Below, piece by piece: positions 53,814 to 55,540 of a DNA stretch of 55,714 bases. The notes under the pieces are model-generated. The model had not been told where the DNA came from. It did no database searches and saw only the letters and a list, made by a program, of their open reading frames with translations. The position numbers and the translations under genes were made by a program. The DNA comes from Oscillospiraceae bacterium. Lineage in GTDB: Bacteria > Bacillota > Clostridia > Oscillospirales > Oscillospiraceae. The stretch covers positions 1-55,714 of the forward strand of contig JAFQFP010000028.1 in NCBI GenBank assembly GCA_017398625.1, in the 5' to 3' direction. Positions within the stretch are counted from its first letter, which is position 1, and the number at the start of each line of letters is the position of its first letter.

Positions 53814-53842
53814 TTGTAAAAGAGCAAAAAATGTGGTAAACT
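53814..53842 (+). promoter_or_regulatory. Promoter of prfC
   Basis: TTGTAA (53814-53819), 17-bp spacer, TAAACT (53837-53842). The transcript would start near 53849 and include the leader ORF. Confidence 0.7.
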
Positions 53843-53885
53843 GAATTGGTTTATGTGAAATAATCACCTTTTTGGAGGGTTTTTT

Positions 53886-53909
53886 ATGCGGTTTTCCTTT
53901 CCCCCGTAG
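53886..53909 (+). CDS. Seven-codon leader peptide MRFSFPP before prfC
   Basis: ATG CGG TTT TCC TTT CCC CCG TAG, preceded by a strong GGAGGG at 53874-53879. It ends with two prolines and UAG, a slow-terminating context that needs RF1. It lies inside the prfC leader. The 3' neighbour is a hairpin that can cover the prfC ribosome site. This is a small ORF called from its ribosome site and position; translation is not proven. Confidence 0.6.
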   Translation: MRFSFPP

Positions 53910-53940
53910 CCTTCCGTGGTTTTCAATATCATAACGGAGG
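53910..53940 (+). promoter_or_regulatory. Hairpin that can hide the prfC ribosome site
   Basis: CCTTCCGT (53910-53917) pairs with ACGGAGG (53934-53940), seven pairs with one bulged T and a 16-nt loop. GGAGG here is the prfC ribosome site (ATG at 53948). The left arm begins one base after the leader stop codon, inside the footprint of a ribosome paused there. Confidence 0.6.
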
Positions 53941-53947
53941 AAATATT

Positions 53948-55540
53948 ATGTCAACCTTAATACAAGAGATCAGCCGCCGCCGGACCTTCGCCATCATCTC
54001 CCATCCCGACGCCGGTAAAACCACCTTGACCGAAAAATTCCTGCTTTACGGCGGTGCTATCGCTCAGGCGGGCGTGGTCAAGGGCAAGAAAAACTCCCGC
54101 GCCGCCACCTCGGATTGGATGGAGATCGAAAAGCAGCGCGGAATCTCCGTCACCTCCTCGGTGATGCAGTTCCAATACGGCGGCTTCTGCATCAATATTC
54201 TGGATACCCCCGGTCACCAAGACTTTTCCGAGGATACCTACCGCACCCTGATGGCGGCGGATTCCGCTGTCATGGTCATCGACGGTGCAAAGGGCGTTGA
54301 GCCCCAGACACGGAAACTCTTTAAGGTCTGCGCCATGCGCCATATTCCCATTTTTACCTTTGTCAACAAGATGGACCGGGAGACCAAGGATCCCTTTGAC
54401 CTGCTGGACGAGGTGGAACGGGAGCTAGGCATCGAGACCTATGCCATGAACTGGCCCATCGGCTGCGGCAAGGATTTTCAAGGCGTGTATGACCGGGAGC
54501 AGAGCCAGCTTCTGTTCTTCTCCGGTCTGAACGGCAAAGCAAAGGCCGATAAGCTGGCCGTGGATCTGTACGACCCCCAAGTGGCACAGCTTTTGGACGG
54601 CGAGGCGAAGCATCAGCAGCTCATCGACGATGTGGAGCTGCTCTCTGCAGGTCGGGAAATGGATCTGGAGGCTGTCCGCAACGGTCAGCTTAGCCCTGTG
54701 TTCTTCGGCTCTGCGCTGACCAACTTCGGCATCGAGCCTTTCTTGGAGGCGTTTTTGAAGCTGACACCGCCCCCGCTGTCCCGTGTGGCAGACTGCGGCG
54801 AGATCGATACCTTCTCCCCCGACTTTTCCGCCTTTGTATTCAAGATCCAAGCCAACATGAACAAGGCGCACCGGGACCGGCTTGCCTTTATGCGCATCTG
54901 CTCCGGAAAGTTCCAGCGGGACGCGGAATACTACCATGTACAGGGCAACAAGAAGATGCGTCTTTCCCAGCCTCAGCAGCTAATGGCAGCGGAGCGGGAG
55001 ATCGTGGAGGAGGCCTACGCAGGCGATGTGATCGGTGTATTTGATCCCGGCATCTTCGCCATCGGCGATACCATCACCACCCCCGGCAAGAAATTCCGCT
55101 TCTCCGGCATCCCCACCTTTGCCCCGGAGCATTTCTGCCGTGTCTCCGCCAAGGACTCCATGAAGCGCAAGCAGTTCGTCAAGGGTACGGAGCAGATCGC
55201 GCAGGAGGGTGCCATTCAGATCTTCAAGGTTCCCAACTCCGGTATGGAGGAGGTCATCGTGGGCGTCGTTGGCACGCTGCAGCTGGATGTGTTCCAGTAC
55301 CGCATGAAAAACGAGTATGGCGTTGACCTGCGGATGGAGACTCTGCCCTATGAGGAGATCCGTCTCATCGACAGCTACAGCGGCGATCTGGGCGACCTGA
55401 ATCTGGGCAGCGATGCGGAGCTTTTGGAGGACTACCGTGGCAGAAGCCTGCTGGTATTCTCCAGCTACTGGGCAATTGACTTCACCTGCCGCCGCAATCC
55501 CGGTCTGACTCTGAAAGAGATCGTTGTGGAAGAAGGCTAA
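53948..55540 (+). CDS. prfC: Peptide chain release factor 3
   Basis: A 530-residue translational GTPase that removes RF1/RF2 from ribosomes after termination. G1 is ISHPDAGKTTLTEKFLLYGG near residue 19. Switch regions include RGISVTSSVMQF and DTPGHQDFSEDTYRTL, G4 is NKMDRE, and the later domains include FSAFVFKIQANMNKAHRDR. The length is normal for RF3. It is a single-gene transcript with its own promoter, a leader ORF, and a terminator. Confidence 0.97.
   Translation: MSTLIQEISRRRTFAIISHPDAGKTTLTEKFLLYGGAIAQAGVVKGKKNSRAATSDWMEIEKQRGISVTSSVMQFQYGGFCINILDTPGHQDFSEDTYRTLMAADSAVMVIDGAKGVEPQTRKLFKVCAMRHIPIFTFVNKMDRETKDPFDLLDEVERELGIETYAMNWPIGCGKDFQGVYDREQSQLLFFSGLNGKAKADKLAVDLYDPQVAQLLDGEAKHQQLIDDVELLSAGREMDLEAVRNGQLSPVFFGSALTNFGIEPFLEAFLKLTPPPLSRVADCGEIDTFSPDFSAFVFKIQANMNKAHRDRLAFMRICSGKFQRDAEYYHVQGNKKMRLSQPQQLMAAEREIVEEAYAGDVIGVFDPGIFAIGDTITTPGKKFRFSGIPTFAPEHFCRVSAKDSMKRKQFVKGTEQIAQEGAIQIFKVPNSGMEEVIVGVVGTLQLDVFQYRMKNEYGVDLRMETLPYEEIRLIDSYSGDLGDLNLGSDAELLEDYRGRSLLVFSSYWAIDFTCRRNPGLTLKEIVVEEG

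Follow-up and report, generated by a model that had tools for sequence, protein, structure and literature searches.

In the genus of the Oscillospiraceae bacterium studied here, a group of uncultured bacteria from the gut, prfC, the gene for peptide chain release factor 3 (RF3), which assists ribosomes in terminating at stop codons, is frequently preceded by a very short leader ORF ending in Pro-X-UAG and by two covarying arms, the second of which includes the prfC ribosome site. This arrangement is read as a translational attenuator, which would sense the efficiency of translation termination and feed back on RF3, and a probability of roughly 0.7 is given to this reading. Its basis consists of the leader ORF, the constraint on its stop codon and last two residues, the covarying arms, the upstream promoter and the association with prfC. 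A preliminary description had proposed feedback control of RF3 by a leader and a hairpin, an interpretation that comparison across related genomes supports, the feedback step being what we infer.

The prfC locus

The window (the whole stretch of DNA analysed, 55,714 nucleotides) presents the strong ribosome site, the seven-codon ORF ending in Pro-Pro-UAG, the arm and the ACGGAGG sequence just as they had been described at the outset:

53814..53842, plus strand: promoter predicted by motif comparison, with the -35-like element TTGTAA, a 17-nt spacer and the extended -10 element TGGTAAACT
53874..53878, plus strand: leader ribosome site GGAGG (a ribosome site precedes all 35 of the leaders found in the genus)
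53886..53909, plus strand: leader ORF MRFSFPP-UAG, the proposed termination sensor (ATG at 53886, TAG at 53907-53909)
53910..53917, plus strand: left arm CCTTCCGT, directly 3' of the leader stop and able to pair with the prfC ribosome site
53934..53940, plus strand: right arm ACGGAGG, including the prfC ribosome site GGAGG at 53936-53940
53948..55540, plus strand: prfC, peptide chain release factor 3, 530 aa, the proposed regulated gene (ATG at 53948-53950)

The identity of prfC is given by two NCBIfam equivalog models, TIGR00503 (638 bits, cut-off 467) and NF001964 (719 bits, cut-off 473). From the predicted promoter, transcription would begin around 53849, 5' of the leader. A separate promoter scan of the window did not return this promoter; of its two matches, one (9 of 12, plus strand, 53920-53949) overlaps the prfC start codon and the other (10 of 12) lies on the minus strand. 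Among the prfC upstream regions of the genus, the extended -10 element was found in 33 of the 35 with a leader and in 17 of 20 leaderless ones, and it is accompanied by a -35-like element in 30 and 16 of these sets, respectively. A transcription start downstream of 53909, which the preliminary description had set against itself, is not indicated, given that the extended -10 element lies 5' of the leader in those 33 regions and that no promoter was found between the leader stop and prfC in the 34 leader regions examined.

No terminator-like site was found between 53540 and 54020 in a scan of the window only, and no Rfam match in the window exceeded the gathering score. A freshwater-2 match over the leader (53865-53950; 22.1 bits against a threshold of 49.9, E 0.42) is probably due to chance. 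In the same genome prfB, the gene for RF2 (L240, G000:C42:45122-46177), runs uninterrupted from its ATG, free of any in-frame UGA, and thus seems to be without the usual frameshift autoregulation.

Conservation of the leader in the genus

The sample comprised 60 genomes of the same genus besides that of the window and yielded 56 prfC upstream regions from 55 genomes, two of them from G046. Five genomes with no usable prfC start (G005, G031, G036, G052 and G056) and one locus cut off at a contig edge (L009, G040) were dropped before counting. A leader, i.e., a ribosome site, an ATG, five to eight codons and a stop, precedes prfC in 35 of the 56 regions, as the proposal of a conserved short ORF had anticipated, and comparison of the sequences confirms this leader as real and far above chance across the genus. 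Seven codons are found in 28 of the 35 leaders, and the distance from the leader stop to the prfC start is 38-54 nt in 34 of them and 165 nt in L020. In this last locus the leader MRHFPP-UAG has been kept despite roughly 110-125 nt of extra sequence before prfC.

The leaders encode 32 distinct peptides and are variable apart from the stop and proline constraint. Their stop is UAG in 33 cases, UAA in two (L019 and L114) and UGA in none, versus 67 UAA, 36 UGA and 12 UAG among 115 background ORFs, each 120 aa or longer (Fisher 8e-21, relatedness ignored); the background ORFs, like the control genes used below, are mechanical ORFs. Proline lies within the last two codons of 34 leaders, versus at most 10 of 100 in the background (p 8e-22, a value that also ignores relatedness), at the last-but-one codon (-2) in 31 and only at the last in three more, and is absent from both in L006. 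The last residue is Ile in 11 leaders, Pro in 10, Thr in nine, His in three, and Asn and Val in one each, so that the Pro-Pro-stop context first proposed was right as to a constrained proline, but the form conserved is Pro-X-UAG rather than Pro-Pro. As all four proline codons are in use at -2 (CCC 15, CCA 9, CCG 6, CCT 1), the constraint acts on the peptide. The UAG, read by RF1 only, is at least as telling as the proline context. A C directly follows the stop in 20 of the 35 leaders versus 25 of the 115 background ORFs (p 1e-4, without regard to relatedness).

The expectation that relatives would keep the ORF and its stop context held for these leaders, but 21 of the 56 genus regions are leaderless, and only one of 215 regions outside the genus has a clear leader of this kind. 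Scored as leaderless were L007 (a chance ATG-TAA far upstream), L124 (MR-UAA) and the degenerate L008 and L131. On the prfC tree, where some forks are open, the leader is present on most of the deepest branches of the genus and its presence or absence requires 15 changes, a count that by itself fits gain or loss; taken with the deep branches, it suggests that the leader is probably ancestral in the genus and was then lost many times.

With regard to specificity for prfC, 61 genomes (38 from the genus) were scanned for a pattern of SD, ATG and Pro-X-UAG, with 87 matches. Those in frame with Pro at -2 numbered 43, 16 at prfC and 27 elsewhere, and 25 of the latter were examined (left out were G014:C38, of the same string type as L439, and G001:C60). 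An open frame of 100 aa or more, on one strand or the other, contains 22 of the 25; of the remaining three (L205, L207 and L429), L205 overlaps the start of a small ORF on the reverse strand. None of the 25 stands closely 5' of a same-strand gene as the leader does at prfC, and no PX-UAG leader was found at 400 control genes. A second pattern returned matches that mostly resembled chance, and its controls gave at least as many.

Covariation of the two arms

The pairing of the 16 nt after the leader stop with the 22 nt before prfC was evaluated in 34 of the 35 leaders, L020 being left out. Pairing with the own partner averages -12.9 kcal/mol, versus -10.84 (sd 0.30) with permuted partners and -7.3 for shuffled arms, and none of 20,000 permutations was as good, nor was any when ten loci were left out and 25 representatives retained. 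Four controls on these representatives were negative: 16,731 of 20,000 permutations were as good for the arm against the ribosome site of the leader, 5,326 for the leader coding end against the prfC site, 18,826 for the spacer against the prfC site and 6,311 for the arm against the first prfC codons. The covariation of the arms, one of the checks suggested in the preliminary description, was thereby borne out. The locus's own arm is better than its shuffles at the 5% level in 24 of the 34 loci and not in the other 10, and in L016, L018 and L023 the arms are clearly no better than shuffled ones. An alternative switch, based on pairing between the arm and the ribosome site of the leader itself, was rejected: no covariation was seen, and 18,915 of 20,000 permutations were as good.

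The first paired base of the C/U-rich arm lies 1-5 nt after the stop in all 34 loci; for example, GTTCTTCCGAGG pairs with CTTTGGAGGAAC in L115 and TCCTCCTGAAAA with TTTTTAGGAGGA in L011. A ribosome with a stop codon in its A site covers about 10 nt beyond the stop, and the arm begins within that distance of the leader stop. Given this geometry, the left arm is proposed as the segment covered by a ribosome waiting at the leader stop.

In the window the picture is weaker. The RNA folds no better than its shuffles (z 0.31 and 0.88), the minimum-energy folds do not contain the exact hairpin claimed, and the arm pairs with its own site at -11.0 versus a mean of -11.4 with the sites of other species, 6% of shuffled arms being as good. 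The SD-hiding hairpin of the preliminary description thus stands as a pair of covarying arms across the genus, but not as a structure recognisable in the fold of the window: it is unconvincing from the window alone and, as judged from the loci compared, strong across species.

The effect of a ribosome was modelled by folding the RNA with the bases under it blocked, in the 34 leader loci and in 17 of the 21 leaderless ones. The median probability that the prfC site is unpaired is 0.02 in the free leader RNA. With a ribosome placed on the leader start it is 0.01, and with the ribosome moved to the stop, 0.36; in the 17 leaderless loci, for which a shorter stretch was folded, it is 0.42. The modelled access increases with the ribosome at the stop in 31 of the 34 loci, by more than 0.3 in 12, and changes from 0.21 to 0.27 in the window.

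Proposed mechanism

The stop codon UAG is recognised by RF1 alone. In single-molecule work, the relevant passages of PMC5995542 make RF1 dissociation dependent on peptide release and RF3, while RF2 can leave spontaneously, and an excerpt of PMC3988563 gives a 500-fold faster dissociation of RF1 with RF3-GTP. Part of PMC5373646 describes ribosomes accumulating over stops and leader attenuators being disturbed without RF3, and, from a portion of PMC10192219, RF3 participates with RRF in the drop-off of short peptidyl-tRNAs. Termination can stall at a C-terminal proline, a residue that clades without RF3 avoid more strongly at this position (PMC7246954). The RF1-only UAG, the RF3-dependent exit of RF1 and the slowness of a C-terminal proline together suggest that the dwell time at Pro-X-UAG should depend strongly on RF3.

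We infer, then, translation of the leader, an RF3-dependent pause of ribosomes at its UAG, and a response in the following direction. A ribosome would load on the leader, make about seven residues and arrive at Pro-X-UAG, where scarce RF3 would make peptide release and RF1 turnover slow, so that the lingering ribosome would cover the C/U-rich left arm and leave the prfC ribosome site open for the production of more RF3. When RF3 is sufficient, the ribosome would depart, the arm would pair with the prfC site and the translation of prfC would drop.

Some observations stand against this attenuator, such as the 21 leaderless regions, the UAA stops of L019 and L114, the lack of the proline in L006 and the average arm of the window. 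From the literature, PMC7246954 also indicates that a C-terminal Pro or Thr left expression unchanged in Mycoplasma pneumoniae, which has no RF3, and part of PMC5373646 reports that leader-attenuated operons were expressed less, not more, in E. coli without RF3; those operons, as presented there, use transcription attenuation and a geometry other than that of the prfC leader.

If the mechanism is true, the leader would be a built-in reporter of termination by RF1 and RF3 and a natural assay for the role of RF3 in cells, the retention of one stop codon would be explained, and leader peptides could be said to monitor the termination machinery, and not just a metabolite or a drug.

Alternative explanations

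The covarying arms, and a geometry that suits any ribosome at the leader end, also accord with constitutive coupling, in which ribosomes passing through the leader open the prfC site and RF3 production follows general translation with no sensing of termination. This is rather unlikely, as it leaves unexplained the UAG of 33 of the 35 leaders, the proline in the last two codons of 34 and the association with the gene of a termination factor. It is quite improbable that the signal read by the leader is an external compound inhibiting termination or the exit tunnel (a macrolide or an apidaecin-like peptide, for example), with RF3 as the protective response. The six-residue leader MsrDL does stall at its stop with erythromycin, as part of PMC10314930 recounts, but the residues before the leader end are variable here, unlike those of a tunnel peptide that reads a drug, and an RF1-only stop with RF3 as the output suits an internal signal better.

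A short ORF closely 5' of prfC might likewise serve reinitiation, with the ribosome that ends the leader moving on to start prfC at a rate tuned by the slow stop; given the stop-to-start gap of 38-54 nt (165 in L020), the strong ribosome site of prfC itself and a covarying hairpin that would be left without a role, this is highly improbable. The least probable reading is that of inherited sequence without function. The loci are related and the p values ignore the tree, yet the stop, the proline and the pairing of the arms persist while the peptide and the spacer have diverged, the result of 0 in 20,000 holds for the 25 representatives, and a PX-UAG leader with a possible arm stands before prfC in another genus too (L379).

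Comparison with known systems

In the translational attenuation of erm and cat genes, a leader ORF with its own ribosome site is the place where a stalled ribosome frees a sequestered ribosome site downstream. The translational attenuator proposed for prfC likewise has a short ORF, a ribosome site of its own and a sequestered downstream site: the leader lies 5' of the gene in the 35 regions, with the predicted promoter upstream, and the covarying arms across the genus indicate a prfC ribosome site sequestered by a segment that a ribosome can cover. It differs in that the stall of erm and cat is induced by a drug inside the leader, whereas an RF1/RF3-dependent pause at the stop is proposed here, and in that the controlled gene is a termination factor.

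TnaC, the leader of the tryptophanase operon, pauses at a stop directly after a proline. From what a portion of PMC3902921 conveys, it differs in its need for tryptophan and a longer, tunnel-reading peptide, and in its control of transcription. MsrDL, the leader of msrD, resembles the prfC leader in its very short peptide, with the stop in the A site and the ribosome over the first half of a hairpin, and in a stop codon whose identity matters and is conserved, but it needs a macrolide, controls transcription through a terminator and prefers UAA (all from passages of PMC10314930). The window scan found no intrinsic terminator of the TnaC or MsrDL type between the leader and prfC, and a transcription attenuator was rejected, as no terminator is present in the window.

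The autoregulation of RF2 is a textbook case, and we know of no RF3 counterpart. In both prfB and the proposed prfC system a release-factor gene senses termination via a stop specific to one factor, and the in-gene stop of prfB is nearly always UGA and never UAG, in contrast to the UAG of the prfC leader (prfB as portrayed in part of PMC12421855). The prfB frameshift takes place inside the gene, while prfC would rely on a separate leader and a hairpin. No in-gene stop bypassed by a frameshift was found at prfC, where the ORF is separate; readthrough or frameshifting into a fusion with prfC was rejected, given that the distance from leader to prfC is not constant modulo 3. By analogy, the prfC leader may represent homeostatic feedback with the same logic as the prfB frameshift, a parallel that we draw from the comparison. 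Searches of open-licence papers on leaders, attenuation or autoregulation of prfC and RF3 brought up no such control, an absence that is not proof, and two papers on prfB autoregulation (PMC12421855 being one) leave RF3 and prfC unmentioned.

Leaders and start-stop forms outside the genus

Among 215 distinct prfC upstream regions from outside the genus, with near-identical ones removed, the one clear PX-UAG leader is that of L379 (genus g297), the ten-codon MINYHLQVPH-UAG, which is followed by TCTCCA, a possible arm. Also found were the 15-codon MKQFISAGRCLTSPT of L258 and L370 (genus g47), which ends in SPT-UAA 62 nt before prfC with no evident SD-pairing arm, and the MGDTPL-UGA of L270.

A different form, a start-stop mini-ORF made of a ribosome site, an AUG and an immediate stop, lies 44-69 nt before prfC in 14 of the 215 regions, at these loci:

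L034, L041, L046, L249, L274, L295, L298
L305, L340, L361, L372, L375, L377, L382

These forms often read GGG-loop-CCC-AUG-stop, with UAG in seven, UAA in six and UGA in one, and are spread over several genera in the family of the window as well as two further coded families (f23 and f26); the prfC starts in this set were read from tblastn and are approximate. At that distance 14 of the 22 places with a ribosome site and an ATG meet a stop at once, versus a mean of 0.72 and at most 5 in 300 runs of a first-order random model. Other distances before prfC gave 0, 2 and 2 cases, and none of the 24 such places at 400 control genes had an immediate stop. Two of the criteria, the permitted distance of 40-74 nt and three of eight ribosome-site strings, were chosen once the first hits had been seen. 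Restricting the strings to the five standard ones leaves 11 of the 215 regions (null mean of 0.58, never more than 3 in 300), and 71 regions fetched after the criteria had been fixed gave six hits, five of them with standard strings (null mean 0.19, at most 3 in 300).

In the start-stop forms no arm after the stop covaries with the prfC site (14,595 of 20,000 permutations were as good), and pairing before the ATG showed a weak, non-significant trend (2,145 of 20,000); a hairpin mechanism is accordingly not proposed for them. For 12 of these loci Rfam gave just a tRNA elsewhere and two matches below threshold. The start-stop pattern had 18 matches across 120 genomes of the family, three of them before prfC (L401, L417 and L411), and most of those away from prfC lie within open frames, so that the pattern is enriched at prfC, its exclusivity not being proved. 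Of the matches away from prfC, L415 is flanked by divergent genes, and L407 stands some 120 nt 5' of a ligase-like gene.

Both forms would put a terminating ribosome just 5' of prfC, at a stop which in nearly every case is one recognised by RF1. The chances are even that at least two kinds of termination sensor accompany the RF3 genes of this order, the Pro-X-UAG leader with its SD-hiding arm in the genus, with one case in another genus, and the AUG-stop mini-ORF elsewhere, which would make the RF1/RF3 cycle self-regulated and mirror the RF2 frameshift. Finally, two possible start-stop forms with other start codons, left uncounted, are TTG-TGA after GGGGGATACTCCC in L270 and GTG-TAA after GGGTGTCTTTCCG in L391.
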